A stretch of 24,454 nt of DNA from a virus. Position 1 is the stretch's first letter. Every line of letters begins with the position of its first letter. The stretch covers positions 1 through 24,454 of IMG/VR virus record IMGVR_UViG_3300008448_000620, one strand, 5' to 3'. Shown piece after piece: positions 3,671 to 15,227 of the stretch. Position numbers and translations under genes: made by a program. The notes beneath the pieces are model-generated. The model was not told the origin of the DNA. It worked only from the letters and a program-made list of their open reading frames with translations, and made no database searches.

Positions 3671-5151
3671 CACCAAAATCCTCCCAATTTTCCTGTAGCA
3701 TAGTCTTTTAGACTGAATCGTTTGCTTACGTCACCTCTACTTATCATGGGTATAGCCTGTATTTGAATTTGCATCTTAGTAGGTACATATGTTATTTTAG
3801 TATCTGCACTTAGACTATTCCATTGTGTAGGGGGTGCAGTGCCTCCAGGACTTATTTTAGATGCATTTAGTCGTATTCCTTGTGACTGTCCGCTAGTAGA
3901 TGAATTGTTACTAAAAGTATCTTTTTCCGTTGAAGTGGCTCTTATATAATCTACATCAGAAGGTAATGAATAAGTAAAATTAGTAATTACTAACGGAGAG
4001 CCTGCGAATTGATAATCACCATACCCATCTAAATAGCATACCGGAGGAGGAGTACCATTAACTGGATCTTGATCTTTTCCATAAAACATTTTGGTTACTG
4101 ATTTGAAAAAATGTATTACTGCTAGTAAATAGTTCGCTTCAAACGTATCTTGTGCTGTAAAATCACAAGTAATACCTATATTATCAACTGAACTTAGGGT
4201 ATAATTATACATTTTAAAATTACTATGTATTATATCGCTCATTTGATAACTTGCACTATATCCTATCTGAATCGACGGAGTATAGGGGAAAATTACGCCC
4301 TCTGATGCTTTCAATGGTGCTAAAATTCCTGGGGGTGAAGCATTATATAGATAATTTGAATTTGGTGCCAGTCTTAATTTTACTCTCCAATCTTTTAATG
4401 CAGAATAATTATATTGATCTTGAGCAGTTGCTTGTTTTCTAGCCTCTATGGTTTGCCCTGGAGTAGCCCTTCGATTTGTAGGAGCAGTAAATTCAGGATT
4501 ACTAGAGAATGATGAAGTTATATCGCTATCTTCCGATGTAGGCTCATCAGGAATACTCGGAACCGCTATTCCATTTCTTCTTAGAATTTCATCTAAATTT
4601 GATTTAGATTGGTCGTATTGAGCGATAGTGGCATCTGAATCATCGATTATTTTTTGTGCCGCTATTAAAGCATCAGTTTGACTCTGAGGTGGCTCTGGTT
4701 CTTCAGTTATATCCGCCTTGGGCTCAGGTAGAACTGTCTCAGGAATAGGATCGGGTGAAGTATTACCGCCCGGTTGTTCAGACGCTGGACGTGGGGTAGT
4801 ATTAGTATCAGGTATACCTCCTTCTGCTTTTGCTATTCTTATCGATGCAGTGTTAATGCTTGCTTGTAGATCAACCATTTTTCTAGCAATAGCATCTTTT
4901 GCTTCTTCTATTCGTGCTTCTTTCCTGAATGATGCATTATATGCTTTTTGAACAGCAACATACTGATCACTCGTGCGATCAACTCCGGACCTTTGAAGTT
5001 CGTTTAATTGATTTTTAAGCCTTGTAGTTTCTCGACCGGTCGCAATGAATTCATCTCGGTTGGCGTCAAGTTGACCCTGCAGTGCATCCATTTGCTGTTC
5101 TAGGGCTGCTAAAGACGCTCTCCATTCTTCGACTGTTGTGGGTGTAGACAT
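3670..5151 (-). CDS. Baseplate tail-tube initiator-like protein (gp48/gp54 type)
   Basis: 493 residues in three parts. Residues 1-130 are a Gln/Glu/Arg-rich predicted coiled coil. Residues about 130-245 are Pro/Thr/Asp-rich and probably disordered. Residues about 247-493 are a folded domain containing LKDWRVKLRLAPNSNYLYN, GVIFPYTPSIQIGYSASYQ, FTAQDTFEANYLLAVIHFF and LDGYGDYQFAGSPLVITNF. This domain pattern recurs next to gp53 in T4-like phages, where gp48/gp54-type proteins cap the hub and start tail-tube polymerisation. I cannot decide between gp48 and gp54. The N-terminal coiled coil makes it longer than T4 gp54 (about 320) or gp48 (about 364). It is the first gene of the leftward operon; a late-type box lies at 5172-5179 and the predicted short leader holds an AAGGA ribosome-binding site. 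Confidence 0.7.
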   Translation of the reverse strand: MSTPTTVEEWRASLAALEQQMDALQGQLDANRDEFIATGRETTRLKNQLNELQRSGVDRTSDQYVAVQKAYNASFRKEARIEEAKDAIARKMVDLQASINTASIRIAKAEGGIPDTNTTPRPASEQPGGNTSPDPIPETVLPEPKADITEEPEPPQSQTDALIAAQKIIDDSDATIAQYDQSKSNLDEILRRNGIAVPSIPDEPTSEDSDITSSFSSNPEFTAPTNRRATPGQTIEARKQATAQDQYNYSALKDWRVKLRLAPNSNYLYNASPPGILAPLKASEGVIFPYTPSIQIGYSASYQMSDIIHSNFKMYNYTLSSVDNIGITCDFTAQDTFEANYLLAVIHFFKSVTKMFYGKDQDPVNGTPPPVCYLDGYGDYQFAGSPLVITNFTYSLPSDVDYIRATSTEKDTFSNNSSTSGQSQGIRLNASKISPGGTAPPTQWNSLSADTKITYVPTKMQIQIQAIPMISRGDVSKRFSLKDYATGKLGGFW

Positions 5152-9742: not shown

Positions 9743-10315
9743 ATGACTAGCCCACAGAAACAAAAAGGATCAAGTTTTGAGCGAGAAATCGCTCAATTTC
9801 TCACCAAAACATACGGTGAATCATTTATCCGTGCACCGGGATCTGGTGCATATGTTGGGGGCAAAAATCAACAACGTAAAGACTTTTTACATGAAGGTCA
9901 AATACGTAGTTTTAAGGGTGATATTGTACCCGGTCAAAGTTTTTCAAGACTTAATATTGAATGCAAGAGTTATGCAGATTTTCCATTTCATTTAGTACTA
10001 GCAGGCAATTGTAAAGTATTAGACGGATGGATAGATCAAGTTATGGCTGTTTCAGAGCCAATGGATCTAAATGTTCTTTTCATGAAATTTAATAGAAAAG
10101 GTAAATTCATCTGCGTAGAATCAAAATTAACTTGGATCACTGATCAATTTTTATATTATACATCAGAAAAACATAATGATTGGCTAATAATAGAATTTGA
10201 TCACTTTTGGAAATATAACAAAGATATTTTTAAAACATATTCTTCTATTAAAAACAAAGCAGACACCCCGTCGCCTATTCAAAATTTAGAAATCAAAAAC
10301 ATTTTAAGTCTTTAA
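9743..10315 (+). CDS. PD-(D/E)XK nuclease, Holliday-junction-resolvase-like
   Basis: 190 residues. The motif order fits the PD-(D/E)XK fold of Hjc/RecB-like nucleases: FERE (12-15) on the first helix, a GSG loop, GDIVPG with Asp60, and IECK with Glu73 and Lys75, followed by SYADFPFH. The Asp, Glu and Lys would bind the catalytic metal. It sits 35 bases downstream of gp46, so a role in processing recombination or branched replication intermediates is a reasonable inference. It is not related in sequence to T4 gp49 (endonuclease VII), which is a His-Cys type enzyme. It ends the plus-strand module, directly before the structured non-coding region. Confidence 0.75.
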   Translation: MTSPQKQKGSSFEREIAQFLTKTYGESFIRAPGSGAYVGGKNQQRKDFLHEGQIRSFKGDIVPGQSFSRLNIECKSYADFPFHLVLAGNCKVLDGWIDQVMAVSEPMDLNVLFMKFNRKGKFICVESKLTWITDQFLYYTSEKHNDWLIIEFDHFWKYNKDIFKTYSSIKNKADTPSPIQNLEIKNILSL

Positions 10316-10320
10316 ATTTG

Positions 10321-10762
10321 TTTGGTCGGGGTTGCTCGACCCTCCTTGAGGAAGCGTGAAATATCGCCGACGGATCTGGAGTAGCAAGGATTAGTATCCT
10401 TGGAATACCGAGAGTGCAATCGACAAAGCGAACACTCAACAAGCCTATAACTACTCTGCTTTGATGTTATAGGATGTGCGTTGCCGAAGAGGTGTTATAT
10501 AAAAACATTATCTTCACTACAGACCATAAACTTTATAGGGCAACCGGTAGCGTAATATATCAAAAATAGGATGATATTACGGGTACAAGCGGCTAGGGTG
10601 ATGAAGCATGGCAAATTACCAAAGGTAGTGCTGAATAGCACTACCATGGACTCTAAAGCGGCAAATATTAGCCGTATGATACATGACAAAAAGAATCTTT
10701 TAGAATAACGAATCTTATACGAACGAAGTGAGTATAGTTCGTAGATGTCCGTAAGGACATCT
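10321..10762 (+). ncRNA. Large structured non-coding RNA of unidentified class
   Basis: About 440 bases with no credible protein reading, roughly 41% G+C by hand count against about a third in the flanks. Perfect stems: 10324-10328/10337-10341 (5 bp), 10385-10391/10396-10402 (7), 10412-10416/10433-10437 (5), 10444-10451/10466-10473 (8), 10551-10558/10574-10581 (8), 10624-10632/10637-10645 (9, GAAT loop), 10659-10662/10671-10674 (4), 10719-10724/10737-10742 (6), 10743-10750/10755-10762 (8, GTAA loop). The GTAA loop is a GNRA tetraloop only on the plus strand, favouring that strand. Loops can pair: 10330-10335 with 10540-10545, and 10460-10465 with 10559-10564. I see no tRNA, tmRNA, RNase P, group I core or group II domain V. 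Size and phage context resemble the ROOL and GOLLD ornate RNAs, but I cannot match either by eye. Ends and promoter are uncertain. Confidence 0.6.
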
Positions 10763-10765
10763 TGT

Positions 10766-10826
10766 AAAGATAATATTAAAAATAAATCTTAGTATATGAA
10801 TAACTACGGATATTATTTTTATCTTT
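10766..10826. repeat. Imperfect inverted repeat between convergent transcripts
   Basis: AAAGAT-AATAT (10766-10776) can pair with ATATT (10810-10814) and ATCTTT (10821-10826), with a bulge of ATTTTT. It lies between the structured RNA and the stop of the gp51-like gene. It could close the RNA or act as a weak terminator for both strands. Confidence 0.3.
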
Positions 10827-11049
10827 AGAAGAACGGGAGTCCAGATTTTTTTGTTGTTTCTAAATTATTATCGATGAGTTCTTTTAACGCCTCGCGTTCG
10901 GTAGTGGACATATTTAAAATATCTTCATATGTCGCACCACCCCTCATATACCATGCCATTGTCATGGCACTTTTTTTAATATCTATTACTATTTTTTCGT
11001 AGTCGTCAAGCAGCTTCTGGAAACTATCGGGGTCTAGTTTTAGAAGCAT
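10825..11049 (-). CDS. 51: gp51-like baseplate hub assembly protein (small)
   Basis: 74 residues. The C-terminal pattern MAWYMRGGATYEDILNMS, then TEREALKELIDNNLETTKKS and GLPFF, recurs in small proteins of T4-like phages that are placed after gp26 and called gp51 (hub assembly catalyst). T4 gp51 is much longer (about 249), so this would be a minimal form. Such proteins are thought to help hub assembly and not to be part of the virion. It overlaps the gp26-like gene by one base (TAATG), a classical coupling junction. The same position and size would also fit a tail assembly chaperone; I favour gp51-like on sequence impression only. Confidence 0.55.
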   Translation of the reverse strand: MLLKLDPDSFQKLLDDYEKIVIDIKKSAMTMAWYMRGGATYEDILNMSTTEREALKELIDNNLETTKKSGLPFF

Positions 11050-11879
11050 TATTCGAAAAAATCAGATGAGTTCAATGTAAAAGGTTGATCATATTCATGA
11101 GTGCAATTTACACATTTGATTTTAAATGGTTTAATTTCAGTTTGTGATCGTAAATCTGCATTATGGTCTCGTATGCTTACGAATAAATTTTTATCACAAT
11201 TTCTTAAAAAGTCAGCAATAAAAGTTTTATCATCGACTCTAGCATTGGGCGTTTCGATATATTCAATTGCTCCGGTTAAGAGCCTCATGGTTAGTTCAGT
11301 AACTTTTTTTAGGGTATCTTTGCTTTTTTCAGTACGTAGTTCTTCGTTGGGTTCTTGCTCTAGCATCATAAACATGCGCTGAATTTCCAACTGTCCTATG
11401 CTAGCCTCATTCATTTCACGGTATGTTAATGGGCGAAATTTTATTTTTAAATCAGTAATCTCAAAACTCTCATCATAGTTTCCAGGTTTCATTTGTGCTA
11501 GCATGGCTACTAAATTTAACCCATATTTACCTATAGTATCACAAGCTGGACATGATGATTCTATTTCCATTTCAGCACCGTTTGATGCTGCTCTGATACC
11601 TATCAATATTGCATCAACGTCCATACTGTTTATAGACCAAGGTTCTTTTATATTAGGTACACAACTTTTAATTAATTCAACCATTGCACTACCATTAAAC
11701 AACGCATCAGGTGTTTTAGTAGTAATTTCGTCTATTGCAGTCATTGGAAATATAGGCAACTCTTGATTTTCCGGCATGTCTAATACAGCAGGACTGTAAT
11801 ATTTTCCTTGGCTAGGTAGCCTGACATATACTGCTGGTCTACGAAAATATTGCTTTAGTGGATTGTTTTCTAATGCCAT
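11049..11879 (-). CDS. 26: gp26-like baseplate hub subunit
   Basis: 276 residues. The N-terminal YFRRPAVYVRLPSQGKYY and the region IFPMTAIDEITTKTPDALFN are typical of the gp26 family in T4-like phages, as is the downstream FRPLTYREMNEASIGQ. Two Cys pairs, CPAC (110-113) and CVNC (256-259), could bind one zinc ion. T4 gp26 (208 residues) is a hub component at the tip of the tail. The gene is followed by the gp51-like gene with a one-base overlap. Upstream, AAAGGA seven bases or so before the ATG is a good ribosome site, and a late-type box is found on this strand at 11929-11936, giving a leader of about 43 bases. It is divergent from the tape-measure-like gene. Confidence 0.75.
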   Translation of the reverse strand: MALENNPLKQYFRRPAVYVRLPSQGKYYSPAVLDMPENQELPIFPMTAIDEITTKTPDALFNGSAMVELIKSCVPNIKEPWSINSMDVDAILIGIRAASNGAEMEIESSCPACDTIGKYGLNLVAMLAQMKPGNYDESFEITDLKIKFRPLTYREMNEASIGQLEIQRMFMMLEQEPNEELRTEKSKDTLKKVTELTMRLLTGAIEYIETPNARVDDKTFIADFLRNCDKNLFVSIRDHNADLRSQTEIKPFKIKCVNCTHEYDQPFTLNSSDFFE

Positions 11880-11915
11880 TTAAATTCCTTTATAGATAAT
11901 GGGTATTTGCCCAAT

Positions 11916-11923
11916 AATAAATA
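11916..11923 (+). promoter_or_regulatory. Late-type promoter box for the tape-measure-like gene
   Basis: AATAAATA. With T4 spacing transcription would start near 11929, about 20 bases before the ATG at 11949. This supports that ATG over the in-frame TTG at 11907, which would lie upstream of the transcript. Confidence 0.5.
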
Positions 11924-11928
11924 CATTA

Positions 11929-11936
11929 TATTTATT
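11929..11936 (-). promoter_or_regulatory. Late-type promoter box for gp26/gp51
   Basis: AATAAATA on the minus strand. It forms a perfect 8-base inverted repeat with 11916-11923 (5-base spacer), so the two boxes point at each other and the two transcripts would overlap by a few bases at their 5' ends. Confidence 0.45.
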
Positions 11937-11948
11937 AGTGAAAAAAAT

Positions 11949-14900
11949 ATGGATGAAAATTCTCAGCAAGTGTTAAATGAACTTAAGGAAGCAATGTCTT
12001 TCTTAAGTGATAGTATTAACCAAAATACCATGGTTCGTAGGGCTGCACTTACAGACGAACAACGTGAAAGATTGCAGAATACAGAAAGCTTGAGACAAAA
12101 CAGTTCAGCCAACCAAGAGAGTACTAGGGTAGTTAATGAACGTACCCGTGCTGAAGAGGCACATGCCAAAGCAGTAAAAGAATATCAACAGGTATTTAGA
12201 AATTATCATGCAGCATTAGAAAGTTCAATATCAGGAATATCTAAAGCGTTCGAATCATTAATTTCAGGTACTAAAGGTTCTTTTGAAAAATACAATTCAA
12301 GCCTAGGTGCTTTTGGTGATGCATCAGCTAGTGTCCTTAAGAATTTTGGTAAGACCGGCGATATATTAGGACATGTAGTAAAAGGTGGTACTACTGTAAT
12401 AAAATTATATGCAGAACAAGCAGATAATTTACATAAAGCAAATGATCAATTAGCGCAACTGGGTACTGCTGGTAGTTTTACTATAAACCAATTAAGAGAA
12501 ATGGCTAATGCAGCAGGAATTACGTCTAAGAATATGGACGTTTTGATAAAGCCATTAAAAAGTTTAGGCCCCACGTTAGTTAATTTAAGCACTAATACCG
12601 GTGAAGGTGTAAAAGCATTTGCTAGTCTAACAACAATATCTACTCAGCAGCGAGAGCAATTTCAACGCTTAGGTGTAAGTCAAGAACAATTAGTGCAGAA
12701 TCAAGCCGACTATTTGAAATTGCAGGCAATGTCGGGTGGTAGTTTAAAAAGAGAGATGACTGATAGAAATGCATTACAAAAAGCATCGTTAGAATACACT
12801 GAAAATTTATTAGTATTGGCATCTGTTACTGGACAAGATGTTGAAAAAGTTAAACAAGCACAACAAGAACAATTAAATCAAGTAAATTTTCAAGTAAAAC
12901 AAGTACAATTAATTAATAAAGCTAGGGAATTAGAACAATCAGGAAGAGAAAAAGAAGCCCAAAAATACTTTGATCAAGCAAAAAATATGCGTGAAGGTAT
13001 GACGCAATTAGCAGGATTGAACAATAAAGTATTATCGGAGGCTGCAAGAGAAATGATGACTACCGGAACAATAACCGGTAAAAATGCACAAGCAGTTGCT
13101 AGATTGGGCCTCTCTGATGAATTGTCTAAGTTTGTGTCAACAATTAAAAAAGGGGGCAATTCGCAACAAGCGGCCGGCGCACTACAGGACTCATTTAATC
13201 AAAAATTTGGTAAAATGGTTAATGAGGTAGGGTTTGCTGCTAGTCTAAGTGAAGAAGTCGCTGAGGCATTCGGTATAAACAAAGAAACCTTAACTAGATA
13301 TGTAACTGATCTCGACAAAACATACGCAAAACAATTAGGTGTAGAAAAAGACAAGATAAAAGGTGCTCAAAAATCCGGTACCGATCCCGCGCAAGATGCT
13401 AGAGCAAAATTAACCACGCTAGAAATTCAAGCTACAACTGCATTAGATGGACTTATAGGAAAAGCCAACATATTAACCGGTGGATTTGATGCCCAAACTA
13501 TAGCATTAACTGCATTTGGGGCAGCGGTAGTAGGTGTAACCGGTTACCTTACTGCTATGGCAGGATCTAAATTATTGCAAAAGATAACTGATATAGGATT
13601 GACTAGGGGAGGCACTAGGGCTACACCTTTATATGTAGAATCTGTGAGTCCCGGCGGAATAGATTTAGATAGAAGAAAAAAAGGTAAAACCGTACGCAGA
13701 AAAGGCAGTGTTCCAAAAACTCCTACTCCTAGTGCAGGTGGAAAACTACCTATAGGAAAAATAGCAGGAGGTGCAGGTGTTGCCGGCGCTGTAATAGGCG
13801 GAGTGATGTTGGCCAGTGACTTGAGCGATATTAGTAAACAAGTCAAAAGCGGTGATATAACAGAAGCCGAAGGCACTAAACAAAAAGGCGGAGCAGTAGG
13901 TGGTGCGGCAGGTGCTGCTGCTGGCGCGGCCGCAGGCGCAGCAATTGGATCTGTTGTTCCTGTATTCGGGACAATAATAGGAGGTATAATAGGCGGCTGG
14001 CTAGGAAGTCAAGGTGGCAAATTACTGGGTGAAAAGATAGGTGAAGGTGTTGCCAAGCAACCAGAGCCCGATATTAAAAAACTAGCAAAAGCTGAAGATA
14101 TAACACTTAGAAAAGATTCTAATAAACAGACCACAGCATTAAATGAAACAATGTTGTTAAACATAAAAGCATTAGAGGAGTTGACTCAATTATTTAATGA
14201 CAAGTTGTTTCTTGACACATTTAGTGAGCAAGGAGGTACTGATGAAGAAAAATCTAATCTAAAAGAAGAGATTCTTAAAAGAATTGGTTTAGGATCTTTT
14301 GGAAGCGTCAAATCTACAGGAGCAATTAGTGGTGGCAGTGGTCCTAGTGCAGCCGATATATCAGCAGCAATACAACCTATAAAACCCACAGTAACCGGTA
14401 AGCAATTTGCAGATGAAATGTATGCTAACTTGATTAAGGAGGCAAAAAAACAAGGGGTTCAAAATCCGGAAGCTATAGCAAAATTAGGAGTAGCACAATC
14501 TGCAATAGAAACAGGCTGGGGCAAATATCTCGCCGGCGGCAATAATTATTTTGGAATTAAGGCTCGGCCAGGCGATACTAGTAATACACAATCTACTAAG
14601 GAATGGGATCCAAAAACTAACTCTTATGTCACTATTAAATCAGCATTTAGAAGCTATGCTAATATGTCAGAATCTGCGGCTGATTATGTTAGATTTTTAA
14701 AAGAAAATAGCAGATATAAAGATGTTTTGGCAGCAAAAACAATTGACGATGCAATTACTGCTCAAAGTAAAACCGGATATGCAACAGATCCAAGATATGG
14801 TAACAAGTTAAGATCAGTGGTTTCTGGGTTAGACAATACAGCAACGCAAGACCCAAAAGTCTCTACTACAGCATCTTCGACAAAGCCTCCGTTATCAGTT

Positions 14901-15227
14901 AAAGCTGCCTTTGGTTCTGTTATAGAAGGACCTAATTCTGGTTATCCTGTTGATTTGACTGCTCATGGCAGAGAAATTATATCTCCTTTAAAAGCCGGAT
15001 CATTATTGGAATTGCTTTCAAATACAACAGCATCTGCTGGGTTTGATCAATCTTCTAAAATTTCAAATGATAGTACTAGCACAGACATGAATACTGCACT
15101 TCGAGAAATCTATAGGATGAATGAATCATTTAATGGAATGATGTTGAGTAAACTAGATACCATGATTGATAAACTTTCAATTGGCAACGATACTCAATCT
15201 AGTATATTGCAATATACTAAAATTTGA
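11949..15227 (+). CDS. Tape-measure-like tail protein with glucosaminidase domain
   Basis: 1092 residues from the ATG at 11949. Residues 1-520 are mostly helical and coiled-coil-like (Gln/Lys/Glu/Ala-rich). Two glycine-zipper hydrophobic segments (about 602-625 and 647-690) resemble those of tape-measure proteins that insert into the inner membrane. Residues about 820-960 match the FlgJ-type endo-beta-N-acetylglucosaminidase family: AQSAIETGWGKY with the likely catalytic Glu near 854, NNYFGIKA, FRSYANMSESAADYVRFL, and GYATDPRYGNKL. This domain cuts the glycan strands of peptidoglycan. The C-terminus (VDLTAHGREIISPL) resembles the ends of other tape-measure proteins. I infer that it sets tail length and then opens the cell wall. 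It lies between the hub genes and gp20; a late box precedes it, but no clear Shine-Dalgarno sequence is present. Confidence 0.75.
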   Translation: MDENSQQVLNELKEAMSFLSDSINQNTMVRRAALTDEQRERLQNTESLRQNSSANQESTRVVNERTRAEEAHAKAVKEYQQVFRNYHAALESSISGISKAFESLISGTKGSFEKYNSSLGAFGDASASVLKNFGKTGDILGHVVKGGTTVIKLYAEQADNLHKANDQLAQLGTAGSFTINQLREMANAAGITSKNMDVLIKPLKSLGPTLVNLSTNTGEGVKAFASLTTISTQQREQFQRLGVSQEQLVQNQADYLKLQAMSGGSLKREMTDRNALQKASLEYTENLLVLASVTGQDVEKVKQAQQEQLNQVNFQVKQVQLINKARELEQSGREKEAQKYFDQAKNMREGMTQLAGLNNKVLSEAAREMMTTGTITGKNAQAVARLGLSDELSKFVSTIKKGGNSQQAAGALQDSFNQKFGKMVNEVGFAASLSEEVAEAFGINKETLTRYVTDLDKTYAKQLGVEKDKIKGAQKSGTDPAQDARAKLTTLEIQATTALDGLIGKANILTGGFDAQTIALTAFGAAVVGVTGYLTAMAGSKLLQKITDIGLTRGGTRATPLYVESVSPGGIDLDRRKKGKTVRRKGSVPKTPTPSAGGKLPIGKIAGGAGVAGAVIGGVMLASDLSDISKQVKSGDITEAEGTKQKGGAVGGAAGAAAGAAAGAAIGSVVPVFGTIIGGIIGGWLGSQGGKLLGEKIGEGVAKQPEPDIKKLAKAEDITLRKDSNKQTTALNETMLLNIKALEELTQLFNDKLFLDTFSEQGGTDEEKSNLKEEILKRIGLGSFGSVKSTGAISGGSGPSAADISAAIQPIKPTVTGKQFADEMYANLIKEAKKQGVQNPEAIAKLGVAQSAIETGWGKYLAGGNNYFGIKARPGDTSNTQSTKEWDPKTNSYVTIKSAFRSYANMSESAADYVRFLKENSRYKDVLAAKTIDDAITAQSKTGYATDPRYGNKLRSVVSGLDNTATQDPKVSTTASSTKPPLSVKAAFGSVIEGPNSGYPVDLTAHGREIISPLKAGSLLELLSNTTASAGFDQSSKISNDSTSTDMNTALREIYRMNESFNGMMLSKLDTMIDKLSIGNDTQSSILQYTKI

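Follow-up and report, generated by a model that had tools for sequence, protein, structure and literature searches.

Noncoding RNAs as large and structured as ROOL, GOLLD, and OLE are rare, and these three led to unexpected architectures. ROOL and GOLLD often, but not always, lie near a tRNA island and feature an RNA-only homo-oligomeric cage. GOLLD is a phage-borne ornate RNA with one conserved and one less conserved part, expression of which rises during lysis, and OLE is a large structured bacterial RNA (PMC12286853). Another motif, Polynucleobacter-1 (RF01718), was tabled by Weinberg et al. in 2010 as occurring in Burkholderiales, fresh water, and estuary, and no phage context for it was found in the text of that article (PMC2864571).

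The window, meaning the whole stretch of 24,454 bases analyzed here, is an IMG/VR virus fragment that encodes a gp23-type capsid protein, an S77 prohead protease, a T4-type portal, and a baseplate protein. For the portal, identity is 55% with Sinorhizobium phage Phosso and 52% with the Pseudomonas PA5oct group, which makes the source of the window an uncultured relative of T4-like jumbo phages. A plus-strand block encoding a gp55-like late sigma factor, SbcD, an unknown ORF, SbcC, and a resolvase faces a convergent module, and the RNA parts the two, as an earlier note on this DNA had described. That note placed a large structured noncoding phage RNA here, a claim that is correct and even understated; its "gp51-like" label for the convergent 74-aa ORF found no match in database searches. 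Further along, 11907-15227 encodes a 1106-aa protein with matches to tape-measure and endolysin families together. The locus is composed as follows:

9743-10315, plus strand: PDDEXK_15 / RusA-like Holliday-junction resolvase, the upstream gene (PF24608, E 8e-26; phrog_244)
10320-10763, plus strand: whole structured RNA, P1 to P13, supported by homologues and covariation (median homologue length about 446 nt)
10825-11879, minus strand: convergent 74-aa ORF and T4-type baseplate hub protein (PF12322 and phrog_150 for 11049-11879)

The G+C content of 10321-10762 is 41.6%, above the 30.8% and 31.0% of the 500-base flanks, and the longest listed ORF inside reaches 64 aa (10495-10689, minus strand), in line with the earlier observation that the region is richer in G+C and has no credible gene. 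The two stems singled out at that time are exact: a 9-bp stem with a 4-base loop (10624-10645, loop GAAU) and an 8-bp stem with a GNRA loop (10743-10762, loop GUAA). The overall count of at least nine perfect stems of 4 to 9 bp, by contrast, is not, taken alone, the stronger evidence. Perfect Watson-Crick hairpins of at least 7 bp number 3, compared to a mean of 0.15 in dinucleotide shuffles (0 of 300 shuffles had as many), while all hairpin stems of at least 5 bp are in mild excess only (5 versus 2.0; 14 of 300). The folding energy z score is -4.8 on the plus strand and -5.5 on the minus strand, and no tRNA or tmRNA was found within the 24.5-kb window. Among homologues, the distance from P1 to P13 varies between 397 and 552 nt, with length differences that are not restricted to multiples of 3, meaning that no reading frame is conserved; a protein gene was thus rejected for this region.

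Compensatory covariation is present among the homologues. It was tested by a G-test with APC against a tree-based null, using a custom script styled on R-scape rather than R-scape itself, and 37 pairs stood above about E 0.1, nearly all of them standard pairs in helices or their immediate neighbors. In an alignment of 58 sequences, the 92 proposed pairs are 95.9% paired, falling to 34 to 40% when partners are slid by 1 to 3 columns, and double-change cells number 770 versus 224 in shuffles (0 of 500 as many), figures to be read knowing that some of the structure was derived from the same sequences later used to test the pairs and that the columns for P2b, P3, P9, and PK2 were set to the majority register after the first count. 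The RNA is assigned to the plus strand, since G-U cells (217) exceed A-C cells (47). The parts of the fold, all on the plus strand, are as follows:

10324-10341: P1 hairpin, right after the resolvase stop codon (82% of cells paired; double changes in 6 of 6 pairs)
10342-10381: P2/P2b, CUCC-UUGAG ... GGA-UCU-GGAG, with a nearly invariant asymmetric loop (98.9% paired)
10385-10402: P3 hairpin, variable (90.9% paired; double changes in 6 of 6 pairs)
10407-10548: P4 (10407-10410/10545-10548), closing the four-way junction P4-P5-P6-P7 (invariant in 58 of 58)
10412-10437: P5/P5b hairpin (100% and 99.4% paired; double changes in 4 of 5 outer pairs)
10439-10477: P6 hairpin, its loop forming the 5' strand of PK1 (helix 8: 99.7% paired; double changes in 9 of 10 pairs)
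10456-10461: PK1 5' strand, pairing with the 3' strand 10587-10592 (348 of 348 cells paired; double changes in 5 of 6 pairs)
10480-10544: P7 (10480-10485/10539-10544, GUUG...CAAC) with P7b and P7c (96% paired)
10523-10525: PK2 5' strand, partner 10582-10584 (94.8% paired; changes one-sided only in the 58-sequence alignment)
10552-10580: P9 hairpin (97.1% paired; double changes in 9 of 10 pairs)
10624-10645: P10, a 9-bp nearly invariant GGUAGUGCU/AGCACUACC hairpin with a variable loop (99.8% paired; 6 of 9 pairs never vary)
10715-10737: P12, 3' hairpin with GA/GA around a small loop (from a motif scan; 31 of 58 window-type rows matched)
10743-10762: P13, terminal hairpin with a GUAA loop (99.6% paired; double changes in 6 of 8 pairs)

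Support is strongest in the core. The P6 pair 10450-10467 scores 337 compared to a null maximum of 135, and three pairs of PK1, a long-range pseudoknot, exceed the tree-based null. PK2 is probably a second, weaker pseudoknot: its pair 10523-10584 covaries in a separate first alignment and its strands are conserved, with no double changes among the 58 sequences. Since P4, P7c, and most of P10 do not vary, they lie beyond covariation testing, and P4, invariant in all 58 sequences, is supported by its position and conservation. The P7 region also includes a conserved ACUACA(G)nCC...ACUUUA segment. An invariant single-stranded ACUAC (10516-10520) could pair with UAGUG/GUAGU of P10 (10626-10630), a possible alternative conformation between two segments that hardly vary. 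At the 3' end, no U-run follows P13 (the downstream T fraction is 0.31), and an intrinsic terminator was rejected on that ground; an AT-rich inverted repeat with 20-nt arms, 85% matched, lies between the RNA and the convergent ORF (10760-10832). Hundreds of related phages keep the fold and change the letters, which marks this RNA gene as genuine and probably important.

How widespread is this RNA? With the resolvase as a query, 80 loci were fetched, and the region lies directly downstream of the resolvase on the same strand in 79 of 80 RusA loci. After removal of duplicates and truncated loci, the window-type RNA occurs in the same place in at least 159 IMG/VR loci; homologue counts are lower bounds, as two pattern scans of viral contigs gave at least the matches listed. 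Mean pairwise identity is 67% among 100 representatives, each below 90% identity. Nine RNA-bearing records of 139 to 525 kb contain exactly one copy each, and the window-type model has no match in 3 of the 12 records searched. Either the window-type RNA or the group 2 RNA described below is carried by 207 of 214 nonredundant, untruncated resolvase loci. Against 50,697 GenBank phages, neither the window sequence nor three group 2 RNAs gave a match, and a consensus query returned 26-base chance matches only. Two exact-motif scans of 84,980 prokaryote species genomes, which would miss diverged copies, also found none. The cultured phages PA5oct, SCTP-2, and Phosso have a homologous resolvase and no recognizable copy of the RNA, so that not every phage of this kind requires it. 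Near the resolvases of PA5oct (L087, NC_071039.1, 1478-2150; z about -6) and Phosso (L088, PV764938.1, 1986-3001; z about -4) are hairpin-rich regions with no convincing genes; they are unmatched by the RNA models built here and may represent another RNA type.

The RNA holds its position when neighboring genes change. It begins about -25 to +40 nt from the last plus-strand stop codon in nearly all loci, even where another gene replaces the resolvase as the last gene, and it always sits at the convergent junction. Wherever a window-type locus extends far enough upstream to tell, the resolvase adjoins the RNA, while in 6 of 48 group 2 loci the two are separated by a plus-strand ORF of 260 to 340 aa or a comparable gap. 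Extra sequence between the RNA and the convergent genes was seen in 8 of 158 window-type and 10 of 45 group 2 loci. In three records (L338, L346, and L347), other genes follow the resolvase and the RNA core lies 4 to 5 kb on, on the same strand, by the baseplate genes. Since its place is kept despite insertions and relocation, the RNA goes with the end of the operon and with the junction, not with one gene; a resolvase-specific 3' UTR is thereby weakened, and the RNA acts like an RNA gene in its own right. The upstream sequence showed a weak AT-rich AAAAnTTgTTT flank only, with no clear conserved promoter motif of the T4-late or sigma-70 kind.

Resolvases 45 to 63% identical to that of the window also precede a noncoding region, of roughly 400 to 1200 nt. 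These form a diverged sister group new to this study, group 2, comprising 48 loci in one cluster at the same resolvase/baseplate junction and having the PK1 topology and the GUUG...CAACCG helix in common with the window RNA. Group 2 RNAs show covariation of their own: the P6-loop pseudoknot at the PK1 position has a mean helix of 8.05 bp compared to a maximum of 6.7 in 300 permutations, and the GUUGn/nCAACCG helix, the equivalent of P7, shows compensatory changes. The core topology is kept despite near-total sequence turnover, and the P4 part differs. A covariance model of the window core, R1, gave no credible match in group 2 or in the GenBank relatives, so that kinship rests on modules, topology, and locus; as these agree, together with the GUUGn/nCAACCG helix, the two types are most likely related.

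The ends of these RNAs evolve as modules. The 5' P1-P2 module of the window is also found in eight other loci, of group 2A (L315, L339, L305, L329, L336, L334, L326, and L310; E 5e-12 to 2e-6). In eight scanned group 2B RNAs (L281, L283, L298, L301, L307, L311, L317, and L320), the first ~140 nt are instead Polynucleobacter-1, with 93 to 112 bits against a cutoff of 37, and these RNAs resemble the window RNA in P6/PK1 topology, in the GUUG...CAACCG helix, and in hairpins on the 3' side. The 3' end of the window RNA is common to several group 2 RNAs, including the GA/GA hairpin of P12 in the motif scan; this hairpin as a general repeated element was rejected, given one per RNA and other counts near background. 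Since 5' and 3' modules are partly common to the groups, they were exchanged or diverge at different rates. The window RNA shows the features by which we define the superfamily, namely, a place between resolvase and baseplate genes and a GUUG...CAACCG helix enclosed by P6 and PK1. Two group 2 loci are unusual: L285 (3158-4250) has a very long RNA region, some 950 nt at least, which contains a partial match to the 5' module, and L284 has a repeated segment with GAAGCTCTAGGGTGAC...ACAGTTAG upstream of the RNA (about 4528-5050).

What might this RNA do? We give about an even chance to its being a trans-acting structural RNA or ribonucleoprotein of ~440 nt, ROOL/GOLLD-like but not a member of either class. 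In this view, a large clade of uncultured T4-like (gp23-type) phages carries it as a single-copy noncoding RNA gene; transcription of the gp55-SbcD-SbcC-resolvase operon would yield it at the 3' end, and it would then be released, or stabilized, as a compact molecule of ~440 nt. We picture a rigid scaffold built from the P1-P2 module on the 5' side, a junction core that PK1, and probably PK2, would lock, and the hairpins on the 3' side. As has been proposed for ROOL and GOLLD, this scaffold may work in trans in the course of infection, either as a structural RNA or in complex with protein. Transcription, processing, action in trans, and any partner or oligomer are what we infer.

The main rival, which we consider unlikely though well short of negligible, is a 3' UTR element acting in cis, which would remain part of the recombination operon's mRNA and serve 3'-end protection, operon insulation, or control of upstream translation or termination. 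The start of the RNA near the last stop codon, even with the resolvase replaced, the constant convergent junction, and the AT-rich inverted repeat beyond P13 all fit such an element, but an invariant junction, pseudoknots, and loops over 440 nt far exceed the needs of a stabilizer or terminator, P13 lacks a downstream U-run, and retention of the RNA when the upstream gene changes shows that it is not specific to one gene. Constant adjacency in window-type loci and a four-way junction at the core would also suit a partner or regulator of the PDDEXK_15 (RusA-like) resolvase, e.g., an inhibitor or cofactor, if the enzyme binds an RNA four-way junction like a DNA junction. We think this improbable: genes separate the two in some group 2 phages, no such RNA accompanies the resolvase homologues of PA5oct, SCTP-2, and Phosso, four-way junctions are common in large RNAs, and the P4 part differs in group 2.

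Being large, multi-pseudoknotted, and phage-borne, the RNA might instead be a ribozyme or mobile RNA that has diverged (group I/II intron, HEARO/omega RNA, or RNase P-like), but this is very improbable given the absence of an Rfam match, a constant single-copy locus that is not mobile, and a place after a stop codon and before convergent genes, which leaves no 3' exon; group I and group II introns were rejected on the same lack of a match and of an interrupted gene. Least probable of all is a DNA-level element, with palindromes such as P10 and P13 serving for protein binding or recombination and the RNA fold coming second. In its favor, the P10 palindrome hardly changes among window-type loci; but the loop of P10 varies in length, which is difficult to reconcile with a dimeric DNA site, and covariation through G-U intermediates, a mark of RNA, is seen in most of the other helices. 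Beyond a trans-acting structural RNA as such, it is plausible, though we put it somewhat below an even chance, that these large phage RNAs constitute a new modular superfamily, carried by nearly all members of an uncultured T4-like clade, with a core function of its own unlike those of ROOL, GOLLD, or ribozymes, the only catalogued trace of which would be the 141-nt Polynucleobacter-1.

The earlier note had suggested a member of a ROOL/GOLLD-type class or a new one. The large structured phage RNA holds; membership in ROOL, GOLLD, group I/II, or HEARO is not supported, and the modular superfamily that includes the orphan motif Polynucleobacter-1 had been missed. Two outcomes that the note named as refuting its reading, stems that fail to covary and a reading frame kept among homologues, were looked for, and neither was seen. 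With gathering thresholds, an Rfam search (cmscan) of the window and of 14 other loci gave no match, the ROOL, GOLLD, OLE, and HEARO models included, and permissive filters with three members gave nothing below E = 1. No published name for the window RNA was found in the open-access literature, a search that left most subscription papers and preprints outside. Like ROOL, the window RNA is large, pseudoknotted, phage-borne, and of unknown function (PMC12286853), but it has no sequence or structure match to ROOL, is shorter, and is not near tRNAs in the 24.5-kb window. It resembles GOLLD in being phage-borne and ornate with conserved and less conserved parts (PMC12286853), but does not match it, is about half its length, and again has no tRNA in the 24.5-kb window. 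OLE is likewise large and structured, with no match and with different hosts and gene context.

Polynucleobacter-1 is likewise among the nearest described RNAs. Like the window RNA, it sits at the resolvase/convergent-baseplate junction, which is not part of the Rfam definition, but its Rfam model has no match in the window or 14 other window-type loci, its 5' domain is a different module, and the 141-nt motif spans only the 5' third of a group 2B RNA. The window RNA is widespread in aquatic phages, single copy, and syntenic, keeping its fold while modules and letters turn over, and dozens of diverse sequences are now ready for cryo-EM, transcriptomic, and genetic tests. Through the sister group, an orphan motif of 2010 gains a phage context and a full-length frame, and the Polynucleobacter-1 Rfam family could be extended and reannotated.
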